A DNA stretch of 64,000 nucleotides from Stenotrophomonas tumulicola. Lineage in GTDB: Bacteria > Pseudomonadota > Gammaproteobacteria > Xanthomonadales > Xanthomonadaceae. Numbering within the stretch: the first letter of the stretch is position 1; the number at the start of each line of letters is the position of its first letter. The notes beneath the pieces were generated by a model. It did not search any database. It was not told where the DNA came from and saw only the letters and a program-made list of their open reading frames with translations. Below are positions 47,946-55,961 of the stretch, in pieces. The DNA lies in contig NZ_JACGXS010000006.1 in NCBI RefSeq assembly GCF_014117215.1, positions 124,001 through 188,000 on the forward strand, given 5' to 3'. The position numbers and the translations under genes were made by a program.

Positions 47946-49364
47946 TCAGTTCGCCAGCGCGACGGTTGGCTGGGCTGCCTGCCCCCAGCCACCCAGTGCC
48001 TTGTACACCGCCACCACGCTGACGTTGACCTCCGCCTCGGCCGCTGCCAATGCATCGTCGGCAGACAGTTGCGTACGCTGCGCGTCGAGCAGCGTCAGGA
48101 AGTCCTCGGACCCCTCCCGATAGCGGATCTGCGCCAGTGATTCCGCGCGCCGCGCCGCCTCTGCCTGCTCGGCCACGATCGCCAGCCGCGCCTGCTGTTT
48201 GGCGTAACGGGTCAACGAGTTCTCGGTGTCTTCCAGCGCCAGCAGCACGGCCTGTTCGTACTGCGCGGCCACGCCATCGGCTTCGGCCTTGGTGGCCTTC
48301 AGCCGTGCGCGCACGGTGCCGAAATCGAATGCGGCCCAGCTCAACGACGGGGTCAACGACCACGCCTTGTTGTTGCTGTTGACCAGGCCATTGGCATCGC
48401 CGCCAAGGAAGCCGACGAAGCCGGTCAGCGACAGCCGCGGGAACAGGTCCGCAGTGGCCACGCCGACCCGTGCACTGGCTGCTGCCAGGCGTCGTTCGGC
48501 GGCACGCACGTCAGCACGCTGGCGCAGCAGTTCGCGGGTATCCCCCAGCGGCAGCTCCTTGGCGAATGCAGGCACTTCGCGCGGTGCCAACAGGCCATCC
48601 AGCGATTCCGGACGCTGCCCCAGGAGCACGGCCAGGCGATGGCGCGATTGTGTCTGCGCCACTTCCAGCAGCGGGATGTCGGCCTCGATGGCCTTCAACC
48701 GCGCGCGGCTGCTCTGCACGTCCAGCTCGCTGCCCGCACCCAGTTCCCAGCGGGTTTCGGTCAGCTTCTGGGTGTCGCGCAGGTTGCCCAGGGTCTGCTC
48801 GGCGACGGCGATGCGCTTCTGGGTGCCGCGCAGTTCGAAGTAGTTGCGCGCCACTTCGGCGGCAACCAGTACCTGCGCGTCGGCCAGGTTGGCCCATTCG
48901 GCATCCAGGTCCGCCCGTGCCGCTTCGGCAGCACGGCGCTGGCGACCGAACAGGTCCAGTTCCCATCCCGCATCGAAGCCGAGCTGGTAGCTCTCGCTGA
49001 AGACGCGCTCGCCACCGGCCAGCGCATCAGGCTGCTTGCGCCGGTCATACGAACCACCGGCGGTCACGTGCGGGGCCTGGTCCAGGCGACGTTCGACGAA
49101 CACCGCACGTGCCTGCTGCACGCGGGAGATCGACACACGCAGGTCCAGGTTGTCGGCCAGCGCGGCGTGCACCAGTTGTTCCAGCACCGGATCATCGAAC
49201 TGCGCCCACCACGTGGCCACCGGCGACTCGGTGCTGTACACCGGCGCCGCCGCCCCCTGCAGGGTCACCGGCGCTTCCACCGGTGCCTTGTAATCGGGGC
49301 CAACGGTCACGCAGCCAGCCAGCAGCACGCTGGACAGGGCGACCGCCAAGGTCTTGATCACCAC
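47946..49364 (-). CDS. smeX: Outer-membrane efflux lipoprotein SmeX (OprM/OprN type)
   Basis: TolC-like channel of the SmeVWX pump. 472 residues. Lipobox LLAGC with Cys18; two OEP repeats (for example LRVSISRVQQARAVFVERRL and RVGVATADLFPRLSLTGFVG), long coiled-coil helices rich in Ala/Gln/Arg. Its ATG overlaps the smeU2 stop by 7 bp. Last gene of the operon. Confidence 0.94.
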   Translation of the reverse strand: MVIKTLAVALSSVLLAGCVTVGPDYKAPVEAPVTLQGAAAPVYSTESPVATWWAQFDDPVLEQLVHAALADNLDLRVSISRVQQARAVFVERRLDQAPHVTAGGSYDRRKQPDALAGGERVFSESYQLGFDAGWELDLFGRQRRAAEAARADLDAEWANLADAQVLVAAEVARNYFELRGTQKRIAVAEQTLGNLRDTQKLTETRWELGAGSELDVQSSRARLKAIEADIPLLEVAQTQSRHRLAVLLGQRPESLDGLLAPREVPAFAKELPLGDTRELLRQRADVRAAERRLAAASARVGVATADLFPRLSLTGFVGFLGGDANGLVNSNNKAWSLTPSLSWAAFDFGTVRARLKATKAEADGVAAQYEQAVLLALEDTENSLTRYAKQQARLAIVAEQAEAARRAESLAQIRYREGSEDFLTLLDAQRTQLSADDALAAAEAEVNVSVVAVYKALGGWGQAAQPTVALAN

Positions 49365-50095
49365 GGCAGCACCTCGCCCAGGTAGGTGAAGCTGCCATTG
49401 GGTCCGTCGGCGCCAAGCAGCGCCATCTGCACGCTGGACTGTGCGCCCACGGAAACTTCCACTTCGCCCTCGCCACGGTTCATGTCGGTCTTTACGTAAC
49501 CCGGATGCACGGTGTTGACCTTGTGGGCGGTGTCGCGAAGCTCATAGGCCAGTTGTGCGGTCCATGCGTTCACCGCGCTCTTGGACACGTTGTAGGCCGG
49601 CACCTTGAAGTCATAGATCGGCGAGCCTGGCTGGGTGTGCAGGGTCACCGAACCGAGCAGGCTGGACACATTGACGATGCGTGCTGCGGCGGATTCGCGC
49701 AGCAGCGGCAGGAACGCCTGGGTCACCGCGACCAGCGCGAACAGGTTGGTGTCGAAGGTACGACGCCAGATATCCAGGGACTGCTGCGACGGGGCCTGGC
49801 TGATGTCATCCAGGATGATGCCGGCATTGTTGACCAGGATGTCCAGGCGCCCGTGGCGCTGGCGTACCTGTTCCACGGCGGCGGCGATGCCAGCCTCGCT
49901 GGTGACGTCCAGCTCGATGGCCTCCACCGGCAGGCCTTCGGCCTGCAGCTTCAGTGCCACTTCCACTGCGGTATCGCGCTTGCGGCCGGCCAGCAGGGTG
50001 TGCACGCCGGCCTGCGCCAGCTGGCGCACGGTCTCGGTGCCGATGCCACGGGTGGCACCGGTGACCAGCGCGATCTTGTTTGCGTGGGTGTTCAT
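49358..50095 (-). CDS. smeU2: Short-chain dehydrogenase SmeU2
   Basis: SDR encoded inside the SmeVWX operon. 245 residues from ATG 50095 (MNTHANKIALVTGATRGIGT). GATRGIG cofactor motif, NNAGIILDD, catalytic YNVSKSAVNA. It may reduce quinone-like or redox substrates connected with the pump; its physiological substrate is not known. About 117 bp with two REP palindromes separate it from smeW. Confidence 0.92.
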   Translation of the reverse strand: MNTHANKIALVTGATRGIGTETVRQLAQAGVHTLLAGRKRDTAVEVALKLQAEGLPVEAIELDVTSEAGIAAAVEQVRQRHGRLDILVNNAGIILDDISQAPSQQSLDIWRRTFDTNLFALVAVTQAFLPLLRESAAARIVNVSSLLGSVTLHTQPGSPIYDFKVPAYNVSKSAVNAWTAQLAYELRDTAHKVNTVHPGYVKTDMNRGEGEVEVSVGAQSSVQMALLGADGPNGSFTYLGEVLPW

Positions 50096-50136
50096 GGTTT
50101 CAATCCTTGCTGGTTGAAAAGAGGGTTTCCGGAGCC

Positions 50137-50196
50137 GCCGAGCAGGGCTCGGCGCTACCGGGACGTCGGAGGTGCAGCGCCGAGCCATGCTCGGCG
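50137..50196. repeat. Pair of REP palindromes inside the sme operon
   Basis: Minus-oriented GCCGAGC-AGG-GCTCGGC with CTACC (50137-50159) and plus-oriented GCAGCGCCGAGCC-ATG-CTCGGCG (50174-50196) between smeW and smeU2. They may uncouple expression of the last two genes. Confidence 0.75.
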
Positions 50197-50212
50197 GGCA
50201 CCGGGACATCCG

Positions 50213-53200
50213 TCAGTGGTGAAGGGTCGACTCGCCGTGGCTCACCAGCTGGCCGCCACCATTCCGGGTCACGAACTTGCGCAGTGCCACGTAGAACACC
50301 GGGGTCAGGAACAGGCCGAACAACGTGACGCCCAGCATGCCGGCGAACACCGTGATGCCGGTGACCGAGCGCACTTCGGCGCCCGCACCATGCGACAACA
50401 CCAGCGGCACGGTGCCGGCGATGAAGGCGATGGAGGTCATCACGATGGGACGCAGGCGCAGGCGGCAGGCTTCCAATGCCGCTTCCACGATGCCCTTGCC
50501 CCCCATCTCCAGCTCCCGGGCGAACTCGACGATCAGGATCGCGTTCTTGCACGCCAGCCCCATCAGCACCACCAGGCCGACCTGTACGAACACATTGTTG
50601 TCACCACCGGTCAGCCATACGCCGACCAGCGCCGACAGCAGCGTCATCGGTACGATCAGGATCACCGCCAGCGGCAGCGACCAGCTTTCATACAACGCCG
50701 CCAGCACCAGGAAGGCCAGCATCACCGCGACGGGGAACACGATCAGCGCGGCATTGCCCTGGGTCGCCTGCTGGTAGCTCAGGTCGGTCCACTCGGTGAC
50801 CATGCCCGGCGGCAACACCTGGGCGGCGATCTCGGTCAGCTTGGCCATGCCTTCGGTGGACGACAGCAGGCGCGGATCGGTTTCACCGGCCAGGTCGGCG
50901 GCCGGATAACCGTTGAAGCGCAGCACCGGATCCGGGCCGAACGTCTGCTTGACGCTGACCATCGAACCGATCGGCACCATTTCGCCGCGATCATTGCGGG
51001 TACGCAGGCGACCGATGTCTTCCACGCTGTCACGGAACTGGCCATCCGCCTGTGCGATCACCTGCCAGGTACGGCCGAACTGGTTGAAGTCGTTGACGTA
51101 GGCCGAACCCAGGTAGGTCTGCAGCGTGTCGAACAACTCGGTCAGCTGCACGCCCTGTGCCTTGGCCTTGACGCGGTCCACCTCGGCATCCAGCTGCGGC
51201 ACGTTGGCCTGGTAGCTGGTGATCGGGAAGGCCATGCCCGGGGTCTGCGCCACCGTGCCCTGCATGGTCTGCACGGCGGTCTGCAACGCGCCGTAGCCCA
51301 GGTTGCCGCGGTCTTCGATGAACATCTGGTAGCCGTTGCCGTTGCCCAGGCCAAGGATCGGCGGGGGCATCAGCGAGAACGCAAACCCTTCCTGGAGGGC
51401 CGAGATCTTCTGGTTGATCTCGGCATTGATCTCCGCCGCAGTACGGCCATTGCGCTCGCTGAACGGCTTGAGCGGCACGAAGGCCACGCCGGTATTGGGC
51501 GTGTTGGTGAACTGCAGCGCGTTCAGGCCGGGGAAGGAGATGGTGTGCGCCACGCCTTCGGTTTCCAGCGCGATGTCGGCCACCTTCTTCAGCATCGCGT
51601 CGGTGCGGGCGATGGACGAACCTTCCGGCAGTTTCACGCCGGCGATCAGGTACAGCTTGTCCTGGGTGGGGATGAAGCCCGGTGGCACCGCCTTGAACAT
51701 CACGCCGGTACCGACCAGCAGCAGGGCATACACCGCGAACACCGCACCGCGCTTGCCGAGGATGTTCGATACGCTGCGCTCGTACTTCTCCGAGCTGGAC
51801 TTGAAGAAGCGGTTGAACGGACGGAATACCCAGCCGAACAGGCGGTCGATGATACGGGTCGGTGCGTCCTTGTCTGCATCATGTGCCTTCAGCAGGCGAG
51901 CGGCCAGGGCCGGCGACAGGGTCAGCGAGTTGATGGCCGAGATCACCGTGGAGATGGCGATGGTGACCGCGAACTGCTTGTAGAACTGGCCGGTGACGCC
52001 GGACAGGAAGGCCATCGGCACGAACACGGCACACAGCACCAGCGCGATGGCGATGATCGGGCCGGACACTTCCTTCATCGCCTGGTGGGCCGCAGCCGTG
52101 GGCGAGAGCCCTTCTTCGATGTTGCGCTCGACGTTCTCCACCACCACGATCGCATCGTCGACCACGATGCCGATCGCCAGCACCAGGCCGAACAGGCTCA
52201 GCGTGTTGATCGAGAAGCCCAGCACGTACAGCGCGCCGAACGTACCCACGATGGACACCGGAACGGCGATCAGCGGAATGATCGAGGCGCGCCAGGTCTG
52301 CAGGAACAGGATGACGACCAGCACCACCAGCGCGATGGCTTCGAGCAGGGTGGAAACCACGGCCTTGATCGAATCACGCACGAAGATGGTGGTGTCATAC
52401 ACCGCTTCGTACTTCACGTCGGCCGGGAAGGTCTTCTGCATCTCGTCCATGGTGTTGATGACAGCATCGCGGATTTCCAGCGCATTCGCACCAGGTGCCT
52501 GGAAGATGCCGATGCCCACCGCGTTCTTGCCATCCAGCTGCGAACGCAGGGTGTAGTCGCCGGCGCCAAGCTCCAGGCGGGCGACGTCGGACAGGCGGAC
52601 CACTTCACCATCGGTACCGCTCTTGAGCACGATGTCGCCGAACTCCTGCTCGCTCTTCAGCCGCCCCTGCGCATTGATCAGGGTCAGGAACTGGCTGTTG
52701 GGCATCGGCTCGGCGCCAAGCTGGCCGGCCGACACCTGCACGTTCTGCTCGCGCATGGCACCCACCACGTCGCTGGCGGTCAGCCCACGGGCGGCGATCT
52801 TGTCCGGGTCCAGCCACGCACGCATGGCGTAGTCACCACCACCGAAGATCTGTGCATCGCCCACGCCCTGGATACGCGACAGCGCATCCTTCACATGCAG
52901 GCGTGCGTAGTTGCGCAGGTACAGGGTGTCGTACTTTCCTTCCGGCGAAGTCAGGTGCACCACCATCAGGAAGGTCGGCGACTGCTTCTGCGTGGTCACG
53001 CCCTGGCGGCGCACGTCTTCCGGCAGGCGGGCCTGGGCCTGGGCCACGCGGTTCTGCACCTTCACCGCCGCCGCATCCGGATCGGTACCCGGGCGGAAGG
53101 TGATGGTCATCTGCAGCACGCCATCGGAGCCGGCGACCGATTTCATGTACATCATGTCCTCGACGCCGTTGATCGCCTCTTCCAGTGGCGTGGCCACGGT

Positions 53201-53383
53201 TTCGGCGATCACCTTTGGATTGGCGCCCGGGTACACGGTACGCACCACCACCGAAGGCGGCACCACGTCGGGGTATTCACCGGTCGGCAGCAGCGGAATG
53301 CTGATCAGGCCGGCGGCGAAGATGATGATCGACAGCACCGCCGCGAAGATCGGCCTGTCGATGAAGAAGCGGGAAAAATCCAT
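50213..53383 (-). CDS. smeW: RND multidrug efflux transporter SmeW
   Basis: Inner-membrane proton-driven pump of the HAE1 RND family, 1056 residues. Twelve helices; N-terminus MDFSRFFIDRPIFAAVLSI; proton-relay Asp pair in GIVVDDAIVVVENVERN; the large periplasmic porter loops; C-terminal TVFAGMLGVTLFGLFLTPVF. Works with SmeV and SmeX in export of quinolones, chloramphenicol and similar drugs (established for S. maltophilia). Confidence 0.96.
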   Translation of the reverse strand: MDFSRFFIDRPIFAAVLSIIIFAAGLISIPLLPTGEYPDVVPPSVVVRTVYPGANPKVIAETVATPLEEAINGVEDMMYMKSVAGSDGVLQMTITFRPGTDPDAAAVKVQNRVAQAQARLPEDVRRQGVTTQKQSPTFLMVVHLTSPEGKYDTLYLRNYARLHVKDALSRIQGVGDAQIFGGGDYAMRAWLDPDKIAARGLTASDVVGAMREQNVQVSAGQLGAEPMPNSQFLTLINAQGRLKSEQEFGDIVLKSGTDGEVVRLSDVARLELGAGDYTLRSQLDGKNAVGIGIFQAPGANALEIRDAVINTMDEMQKTFPADVKYEAVYDTTIFVRDSIKAVVSTLLEAIALVVLVVILFLQTWRASIIPLIAVPVSIVGTFGALYVLGFSINTLSLFGLVLAIGIVVDDAIVVVENVERNIEEGLSPTAAAHQAMKEVSGPIIAIALVLCAVFVPMAFLSGVTGQFYKQFAVTIAISTVISAINSLTLSPALAARLLKAHDADKDAPTRIIDRLFGWVFRPFNRFFKSSSEKYERSVSNILGKRGAVFAVYALLLVGTGVMFKAVPPGFIPTQDKLYLIAGVKLPEGSSIARTDAMLKKVADIALETEGVAHTISFPGLNALQFTNTPNTGVAFVPLKPFSERNGRTAAEINAEINQKISALQEGFAFSLMPPPILGLGNGNGYQMFIEDRGNLGYGALQTAVQTMQGTVAQTPGMAFPITSYQANVPQLDAEVDRVKAKAQGVQLTELFDTLQTYLGSAYVNDFNQFGRTWQVIAQADGQFRDSVEDIGRLRTRNDRGEMVPIGSMVSVKQTFGPDPVLRFNGYPAADLAGETDPRLLSSTEGMAKLTEIAAQVLPPGMVTEWTDLSYQQATQGNAALIVFPVAVMLAFLVLAALYESWSLPLAVILIVPMTLLSALVGVWLTGGDNNVFVQVGLVVLMGLACKNAILIVEFARELEMGGKGIVEAALEACRLRLRPIVMTSIAFIAGTVPLVLSHGAGAEVRSVTGITVFAGMLGVTLFGLFLTPVFYVALRKFVTRNGGGQLVSHGESTLHH

Positions 53384-53480
53384 GGGAATGTCCTTGGTTT
53401 GGCCAGCGCCGGGATGCAGCCACCCTGCCCCTGCCGTTACGGCAGGGGATCGGGGTTCGCGGTGACGCTGGCCGGATGGA

Positions 53481-54719
53481 TCAGTTCAGTGCGGCGGTTT
53501 CAGTACCGGGCTTGGCAGCAGCGGTGCGCACCGGTGCCGGTGCGGCGCCGGGCTGCATCGCCACCGGCTTGGCCTGGACCGGCATGCCGGGCATGAAGAC
53601 CTTCTGCACGCCATCGACGATGACCTTGTCGCCCGCCACCAGTCCGTTCTCGACGATGCGCAGGCCGTCGGCACTGCGTCCCAGCGCGACGTCACGACGC
53701 TGCGCCTTGCCCTCCTTGTCGACCACGTACACGTACTTGCGGTCCTGGTCGGTCAACACCGCACGGTCGTCGATCAGCGTGGCCTGGAACTGGCCGCTGC
53801 CGAGCAGCTGCACGCGGGCGAACAGGCCCGGGGTGAACTGGCGTTCGGCGTTGTCCAACAGGGCGCGGACGCGGATGGTACCGGTGCTGCGGGTGACCTG
53901 GTTGTCCAGGAAGTCGACCGTGCCTTCGTGCGGGAAGCCCTGCTCACCGCTCAGGCCGATCTTCACCGGCAGCGACGCATCGCGCTCGCTCGGGCGCTCA
54001 CCCTTGCGTGCCATCTGCGCATAGCGCAGGAAGGTGGCTTCGTCGGCATCGAAGTACACGTGCACCTTTTCCAGCGACACCAGCGTGGTCAGGACGCTGG
54101 CGGCATCGCCGGCGCTGACCAGGTTGCCGGCGGTGACCATCGCACGCCCGGCGCGGCCACTGATCGGTGCACGCACCTTGGTGAACTCCAGGTTGAGCGC
54201 CGCCGCGTCCAGTGCCGCCTGTGCGGCCTGCACCTGGGCACCGGCCTGGTCGGAGGCAGCACGACGCTGTTCCCAGGTCTCGGTGGAGATGGCCTGCTGT
54301 TCGGACAGGCGCTTGGCGCGCTCGGACTCGCCACGGGCCAGCGTGGACTGGGTACGTGCACGTGCCAACTCGGCGCGGGCGCGATCGTACTCGGCCTGGT
54401 AGCTGCGCGCGTCGATGGTGAACAGCACGTCACCCTTCTTTACTTCCTGGCCTTCGACATAATTGACCTTGTCGATGTAACCGGAAACGCGTGGGCGCAG
54501 GTCGACATTCTCGACCGCTTCGACGCGGCCACTGAATTCGTCCCACTGGCTTACCTGCTTGATCAATACCGGGGCAGCACTGACTTCAGGCGCAGGCGGC
54601 GCGCCGGCTTCTTCGGCATGGCTGCCGCTGCACGCGGTCAGCACCGCCAGGGCCAACGCCGAAACGGTAGCCAGGGCTACCCGGCGGGTGGTGCGGTGGA
54701 AAGGAATCATGGAGTTCAT
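53481..54719 (-). CDS. smeV: Membrane-fusion protein SmeV
   Basis: Periplasmic adaptor of the pump, about 412 residues from ATG 54719 (MNSMIPFHRTTRR; M at 54710 is possible). Lipobox VLTAC; HlyD-like lipoyl halves (NVDLRPRVSGYIDKVNYVEG and LEFTKVRAPISGRAGRAMV) around a coiled-coil hairpin, then beta-barrel and membrane-proximal domains. A SoxR-type promoter is placed just upstream. Confidence 0.94.
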   Translation of the reverse strand: MNSMIPFHRTTRRVALATVSALALAVLTACSGSHAEEAGAPPAPEVSAAPVLIKQVSQWDEFSGRVEAVENVDLRPRVSGYIDKVNYVEGQEVKKGDVLFTIDARSYQAEYDRARAELARARTQSTLARGESERAKRLSEQQAISTETWEQRRAASDQAGAQVQAAQAALDAAALNLEFTKVRAPISGRAGRAMVTAGNLVSAGDAASVLTTLVSLEKVHVYFDADEATFLRYAQMARKGERPSERDASLPVKIGLSGEQGFPHEGTVDFLDNQVTRSTGTIRVRALLDNAERQFTPGLFARVQLLGSGQFQATLIDDRAVLTDQDRKYVYVVDKEGKAQRRDVALGRSADGLRIVENGLVAGDKVIVDGVQKVFMPGMPVQAKPVAMQPGAAPAPVRTAAAKPGTETAALN

Positions 54720-54792: not shown

Positions 54793-54823
54793 ATGTTGCG
54801 ACCTCAACTTTGGTTGAGGTCAA
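54793..54823 (-). promoter_or_regulatory. SoxR-type box and promoter upstream of smeV
   Basis: CCTCAA-CTTTGG-TTGAGG (54802-54819) has both arms identical to the SoxR operator (CCTCAA-N6-TTGAGG). On the minus strand, toward smeV, TTGACC (54823-54818) is a strong -35, followed by 19 bp and CAACAT (54798-54793) as a weak -10. The 19-bp spacer and operator position are the hallmark of MerR/SoxR-activated promoters. It overlaps the smeU1 stop codon. Confidence 0.78.
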
Positions 54824-55590
54824 GCGCTGCCGGCCGGTTCGTGCCAACGCGGTGGTGCATCCAGCCGCAACAACCCGCGCGGCAGCTGCGCATCGCGTGT
54901 ATCGCAGCGGACGATGGCGCGGTTGTCCTGGCATTGGTCCAGCAGCGAAACCAGCCGGCGGCCGACCAGCAGCGCACTGGGCCATTCGATGCAGGCGTTG
55001 GCGGCGTTGCTCGGCGTACATACCGGTGCGTCGACTTCAAGCAGTTGCGCACGCACGCCGATGGCCTGGGCTTCCTGGTGTACGACCTGCGCATACATGC
55101 GCAGCGCGGCGGCGGTGACGGAACTGTCGCCATGGGCGGCCCAGGGCTTCAATCCCGCCGGGCTGCCGATCATCACGAAGCGGCGCGGATGCGGGTGGTC
55201 CTGCAACAACGGCAACAGGTGGCGTACCGCATGCACATGCGGCATCAGGTCCAGCTGAAGCGTATGCATCAGTGCCTCGCCGGGCCGATCGATCACCCTG
55301 CCGCGCTGATAGGGCCCACCGAGCGCCGCGACCACGGCGCCCAGCGGACGCTGCCGCGCAGACACCCGGTCCGCCACCACCTTGGCCGACTCATCGTCGG
55401 CGACCGAACCCAGCATCGTTTCCAGGCCCGGCTCGTCATCGAACTGTGCGCGCAGGGCGCCCAGCCGCCGCGGATCGCGGCCAACCACCAGCACCGGGCT
55501 GCCAGCTTCCAACAATGCGCCGACCACGCCCTGGCCCACCGCTCCGGTGCCGCCAAGGACCAGGACTTCCGGCACCAGCGTCCCGTTCAC
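54820..55590 (-). CDS. smeU1: SmeU1, NAD(P)-binding short-chain dehydrogenase-like protein
   Basis: First gene of the smeU1-V-W-U2-X operon. 256 residues. N-terminal Rossmann VLVLGGTGAVGQGVVGALLE; VVAALGGPYQRG; RFVMIGSPAGLKPWA. The Tyr-x3-Lys catalytic pair is not evident (AALRMYAQVVHQEA is the nearest), so it may be an atypical SDR. Divergent from smeRv. Confidence 0.87.
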   Translation of the reverse strand: MNGTLVPEVLVLGGTGAVGQGVVGALLEAGSPVLVVGRDPRRLGALRAQFDDEPGLETMLGSVADDESAKVVADRVSARQRPLGAVVAALGGPYQRGRVIDRPGEALMHTLQLDLMPHVHAVRHLLPLLQDHPHPRRFVMIGSPAGLKPWAAHGDSSVTAAALRMYAQVVHQEAQAIGVRAQLLEVDAPVCTPSNAANACIEWPSALLVGRRLVSLLDQCQDNRAIVRCDTRDAQLPRGLLRLDAPPRWHEPAGSA

Positions 55591-55626
55591 GGGATATTTC
55601 CTCCCATCTCCGGGATAATCCCGATT

Positions 55627-55646
55627 CGACCGATACGATCGGTTCG
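55627..55646. promoter_or_regulatory. Palindrome upstream of smeU1
   Basis: CGACCGAT-ACG-ATCGGTTCG, imperfect inverted repeat 37 bp before the smeU1 start and inside the smeU1-smeRv divergent region. A candidate operator for SmeRv or another regulator. Confidence 0.4.
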
Positions 55647-55961
55647 CTGCGGGCGGATCTTCAGGCTACCGCCACGCTGCTGTCTTGCTGGCGCGGTAAA
55701 CTCCCTGAAATCTTTGTTTATCAAGGATTTGGGGCGAGATTCAACGGTCATTGCCTGGTCCAGGGCATCCTGACCGGCACGACGGAAGTAGGCGAGAATG
55801 TTGCGCAGGCTCATGACAGACGGCCTCGTTTTCGGGAATGGCGCCATGATGCAACTCAAACCCCTACTTGATTAGTCCTCTTTTAGGGGAATAATCATCC
55901 CGTCCCCGGTCCAATCTTTTTGGCACGATAGTCCCCGTCCCCGACGTCCAGGAATTCGACC

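Follow-up and report, generated by a model that had tools for sequence, protein, structure and literature searches.

A candidate SoxR-activated promoter between smeU1 and smeV in the SmeVWX efflux operon of a Stenotrophomonas genome

Where could a redox signal enter the operon that encodes the SmeVWX efflux pump? In the literature available in part, resistance of S. maltophilia to fluoroquinolones, chloramphenicol and co-trimoxazole is linked to overproduction of SmeVWX. The available text of PMC12189255 reports that superoxide stress upregulates the operon by way of SoxR, and that of PMC11356428 reports that oxidized SoxR upregulates smeRv. We analyzed a stretch of 64,000 nucleotides (the window) that contains the operon. 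By its smeV locus, the source is nearer S. chelatiphaga/S. pennii than S. maltophilia. The sme names were assigned after the gene order given in the accessible part of PMC12189255:

55962..56981, plus strand: smeRv, divergent LysR-type regulator
55591..55961: smeRv-smeU1 intergenic region, which has no SoxR-type box
54820..55590, minus strand: smeU1, short-chain dehydrogenase/reductase, upstream of the box
53481..54719, minus strand: smeV, RND adaptor, first gene downstream of the box (start picked by alignment with relatives)
50213..53383, minus strand: smeW, RND permease
49358..50209, minus strand: smeU2, short-chain dehydrogenase/reductase
47946..49364, minus strand: smeX, outer-membrane efflux subunit

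The best models for SmeV and SmeW (window positions 50213-54719) are OqxA (581.9 bits) and OqxB (1916.8 bits), both below the model cut-offs.

The junction of smeU1 and smeV carries the following predicted elements:

54818..54823, minus strand: -35 element TTGACC, read directly and common to 46 of 46 boxed loci
54802..54819, minus strand: predicted SoxR-type box, CCTCAACCAAAGTTGAGG in the coding direction, with perfect arms CCTCAA-N6-TTGAGG
54793..54798, minus strand: -10 element CAACAT, separated from the -35 element by a 19-nt spacer
54786, minus strand: predicted transcription start, about 7 nt past the -10 element, giving a leader of about 67 nt to smeV

The preliminary description had read the palindrome as an exact match to the SoxR arms, and direct reading of the window confirms this. 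TTGACC-N19-CAACAT does lie on the coding (minus) strand at 54793-54823, with the box between the -35 and -10 elements. The site was also placed correctly, with the smeU1 stop codon (54822-54820) on one side and the smeV start (54719) on the other. The arms are part of an extended perfect inverted repeat, GACCTCAAC-CAAA-GTTGAGGTC, at 54800-54821. A point that had been missed is that the smeU1 stop codon TGA sits within the -35 hexamer. The -10 element agrees with TATAAT at three of six positions; nonetheless, its A2 and T6 are present in all 46 boxed loci. A plain sigma-70 scan, which admits spacers of 16-18 and needs four of six matches per hexamer, does not return the smeV site.

The exact-arm site occurs once in the window and once in the 4,335,669-base genome, where base composition leads one to expect 0.0024 and 0.16 occurrences. 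With three mismatches allowed, the window holds 10 matches against a shuffle mean of 20, fewer than the shuffles; with two allowed, the genome holds 32 against 23 in a reversed control. Given these degenerate-arm counts, only the exact site stands out. A pattern that joins the -35 element to the arms, TTGACCTNNA-N6-TTNAGGT with one mismatch allowed, finds two sites in 4.34 Mb, at smeV and soxR/mfsA only. Genus-wide, exact-arm boxes number at least 210 sites in 91 genomes, compared with 3 for the reversed pattern, and at least 77 of the 91 genomes have one. These counts show that the motif is real in the genus, which is not the same as placement of each site at smeV. Exact arms by themselves do not establish a promoter, because in several genomes (loci L098, L154, L157 and L164) CCTCAACGATCGTTGAGG or a close variant is found with no TTGA-like -35 element ahead of it.

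The genome encodes SoxR. The protein scores 223.7 bits against a cut-off of 116.9, passes the cut-off of an equivalog model, aligns with E. coli SoxR at E 7.5e-53, and has the [2Fe-2S] cysteines aligned (CIGCGCLSLKRC). Next to its gene lies TTGACCTGAACCATGGTTGAGGT, the counterpart of the S. maltophilia soxR/mfsA promoter, and the smeV box matches this operator of the same genome. The S. maltophilia promoter has TTGACC, 19 bp and CATGCT, and the accessible part of PMC4411124 identifies it as a SoxR target by gel shift and primer extension. It shares TTGACC, the 19-nt spacer and the box arms with the smeV site. It too precedes an efflux pump, one that is induced by redox cyclers according to the same text. 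The two differ in setting: the soxR/mfsA site, as described there, sits between two divergent genes and serves to repress soxR as well, whereas the smeV site is inside an operon, directly past a stop codon. The E. coli box of the soxS promoter, quoted in PMC4411124 as CCTCAAGTTAACTTGAGG, has 12 of 12 arm positions in common with the smeV box; it drives a regulator, whereas the smeV site precedes pump genes. In the text available from PMC6479884, the S. maltophilia sodA1 promoter has the box CCTCAACCAATGTTGAGG, and its menadione induction is SoxR-dependent. Boxes of the sodA1 type precede superoxide dismutase genes in other members of the genus, but sodA1, unlike smeV, is not an efflux gene. 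In the present genome, both superoxide dismutase homologues that were found lack a sodA1-type box (best 3.1 bits). The mexGHI-opmD operon of P. aeruginosa is likewise an RND efflux operon induced through SoxR, as the accessible part of PMC11047544 has it, but it is a different RND operon.

To score the site we used a weight matrix built from 34 soxR-adjacent boxes (25 distinct cores), none of them from smeV and none from the genome of the window. These boxes were drawn from the 34 SoxR-positive genomes among the first 42 searched; the 35 positives of the second 38 were left out. In the window, the smeV site scores 35.4 bits (29.0 on the other strand) and the runner-up 8.6. When the matrix was applied to the window together with the 80 related loci (81 sequences), 46 of them had a site at smeV, scoring 22.3-39.0 bits. 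The 1,972,922 other positions, which comprise both strands of related loci and are not independent sequence, exceed 11.3 bits only at the boxes of superoxide dismutase genes (32-34 bits; 15-17 on the opposite strand).

SoxR is above the cut-off in 69 of the 80 database genomes (34 of 42 and 35 of 38). Of these genomes, 43 of the 45 with the box have it, as do 26 of the 35 without (Fisher p 0.008, kinship ignored). Among loci with smeU1 the association has p 0.18, and the independent pairs are so few that a test on them cannot attain 0.05. With kinship counted, the link between box and SoxR is weak. The boxed genomes without SoxR, L026 and L044, are both metagenome-assembled according to their titles.

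A long spacer with an inverted repeat is the general layout of MerR-family promoters, and the genome encodes five MerR-type proteins, SoxR among them, so another member of the family could in principle work this operator. However, the sites beside two of the four others differ from the smeV box (TTGACCTTGTAG... and TTGACTCCGTAG...; the remaining two are a CueR-like and a fifth protein), whereas SoxR's own site matches it. Control by a different MerR-family regulator is thus very unlikely.

The preliminary description had named conservation of the palindrome in relatives as a check. From one scan of named genomes, we took smeV loci of 80 of 564 relatives; 70 of the 80 carry smeU1. The box is present in 46 sequences, window included: 37 of the Stenotrophomonas group and 9 of Pseudoxanthomonas. 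The boxed set was first picked by a smeU1-smeV gap of more than 50 nt, with L065 (gap, no box) excluded, and a motif scan independent of the gap also gives 46. In the Stenotrophomonas group, every smeU1-bearing locus has the box, which begins at the first base past the smeU1 stop codon in 37 of 37 (window included). The arms are exact in 7 of the 46 boxes, with one mismatch in 27, two in 8 and three in 4; a single arm substitution (CCTCGA) marks S. maltophilia D457 and its kin. In all 46, TTGACC, -10 positions A2 and T6 (both outside the scoring motif) and the spacing are fixed, while -10 positions 3-5 and most of the smeU1-smeV spacer vary. Part of this invariance reflects shared descent, because the 46 loci are relatives. 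Comparison with the soxR-adjacent motif, the SoxR gene and an architecture kept across species together support the SoxR-type promoter reading well. One record titled Bacillus subtilis SK7B5 (L038) has a smeVWX locus that groups inside Stenotrophomonas and is mislabeled or contaminated.

The inverted repeat might instead function at the RNA level, folding between the two genes as a hairpin or terminator. The window sequence would allow a stem of nine pairs closed by a 4-nt loop. Across 24 distinct sequences five of the nine pairs are unbroken, and the innermost pair changes from C-G to G-C in two. However, a middle pair is broken in 12 of the 24 and its neighbor in 6, uncompensated in both cases, and promoter positions beyond the stem are fixed, namely both T residues of the -35 hexamer TTGACC and, in the -10 element, A2 and T6. 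We regard a role in RNA as extremely improbable. An intrinsic terminator, with a GC-rich stem and a T-run, is rejected: the T-run is absent and a terminator scan does not return the site.

We put the probability of a SoxR-activated promoter here, internal to the smeU1-V-W-U2-X operon and driving smeV-W-U2-X without smeU1, at about 85%. From its architecture and conservation, the match to soxR-adjacent operators and the SoxR gene, all read here from sequence, we infer the following course. SoxR would bind the palindrome between the -35 and -10 elements. The 19-nt spacer would hold RNA polymerase inactive until redox-cycling compounds oxidize the [2Fe-2S] cluster of SoxR. Oxidized SoxR would then distort the promoter and activate a smeV-smeW-smeU2-smeX transcript from the predicted start. 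This transcript would lack smeU1 and would not depend on the upstream promoter, which SmeRv and AzoR control. SmeU2 is implicated in easing oxidative stress in the available text of PMC12189255, and a SoxR transcript with smeU2 but not smeU1 fits that role.

The published effect of SoxR on smeRv, already cited from part of PMC11356428, suggests a different route, in which SoxR acts only indirectly by raising smeRv and the smeV box is weak or vestigial. The two or three arm mismatches in 12 of the 46 loci are in keeping with such decay. Against it, no SoxR-type box turns up between smeRv and smeU1 (or between smeRv and smeV) in any of the 77 sequences with smeRv (best 5.5 bits, versus 22-39 at smeV), and the promoter frame at smeV is intact in 46 loci. 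A purely indirect route is therefore unlikely, and a direct site at smeV is the simpler explanation. The absence of a box from the smeRv/smeU1 region also makes a SoxR route that bypasses SmeRv, as the preliminary description had proposed, plausible. The direct route through the smeV box and the indirect one through smeRv could both operate.

It had also been suggested that the site may explain induction of the pump by thiol- or redox-active agents. SoxR-dependent induction of the operon is already in print, in the texts available in part. SoxR does not obviously account for published thiol-reactive inducers such as iodoacetate. The box at smeV is an addition to a known kind of promoter. Literature searches on SmeVWX or smeV with SoxR, SoxR box, internal promoter, menadione and the Xanthomonadales SoxR regulon found, among the papers listed, no report of a box at smeV; the primary 2018 paper lay outside the search, so a prior report is possible. 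For SoxR box together with S. maltophilia, the papers on mfsA and sodA1 were the only ones to come up. A direct SoxR promoter, if true, would change the presumed wiring of a clinically relevant pump, with SoxR acting on smeV and not only through SmeRv. Two transcripts would then be expected, one that includes smeU1 and one that lacks it. Redox cyclers could then raise the pump transiently without a regulator mutation.

The loci without the box show what the junction looks like otherwise. The 25 further database loci with smeU1, mostly Xanthomonas, have no box at smeV. In 24 of them (L051-L054, L061-L063, L066-L068 and others), an ATG in the smeV frame overlaps the smeU1 stop codon as ATGA; the 25th, L065, has a longer smeU1-smeV gap and no box. 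The overlap points to translational coupling of smeU1 and smeV, which would have been given up in the boxed operons. Stenotrophomonas-group loci without smeU1 lack the box in 8 of 8 cases (L011, L013, L030, L031, L035, L047, L049 and L069). In these eight loci smeRv stays adjacent to smeV.

The boxed and unboxed states require five changes on a SmeW tree, which was built quickly, without bootstraps, and leaves out L067 and L074 (no smeW match). Measured from the smeU1 stop codon, the box has an offset of 0 in Stenotrophomonas, 13 in L078, 31 in L060 and 56-62 in the other seven Pseudoxanthomonas. The differing offsets and the tree suggest repeated origin of the box in an operon whose gene pair was coupled through ATGA; one old gain followed by losses would be an alternative compatible with them. 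A broader picture, to which we give somewhat less than even odds, is that SoxR promoters arose more than once at this junction of an otherwise ATGA-coupled operon: Stenotrophomonas would have gained one directly at the smeU1 stop codon, and Pseudoxanthomonas one lying 13 to 62 nt farther downstream. Each time they would have split the pump genes and smeU2 from smeU1 and the LysR-controlled promoter, and the whole recognizable SoxR regulon of this genome would consist of two efflux pumps.

Other boxes in the genus precede genes of different kinds. In three loci of the S. rhizophila group (L037, at about position 1130, L040 and L043), a gene similar to the L095 Fe/Mn superoxide dismutase has its own SoxR-type box of 32-34 bits, about 4.9 kb from smeV. 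Two likely SoxR targets, the superoxide dismutase gene and smeV, are neighbors there. We examined 49 loci for other targets, with family searches on six downstream proteins, one of which had no family. In L092, L106, L156 and similar loci, boxes of the same layout stand before candidate SoxR target genes, whose products are a SAM-dependent methyltransferase, a DoxX-like protein and an L-PSP (RidA-like) protein.
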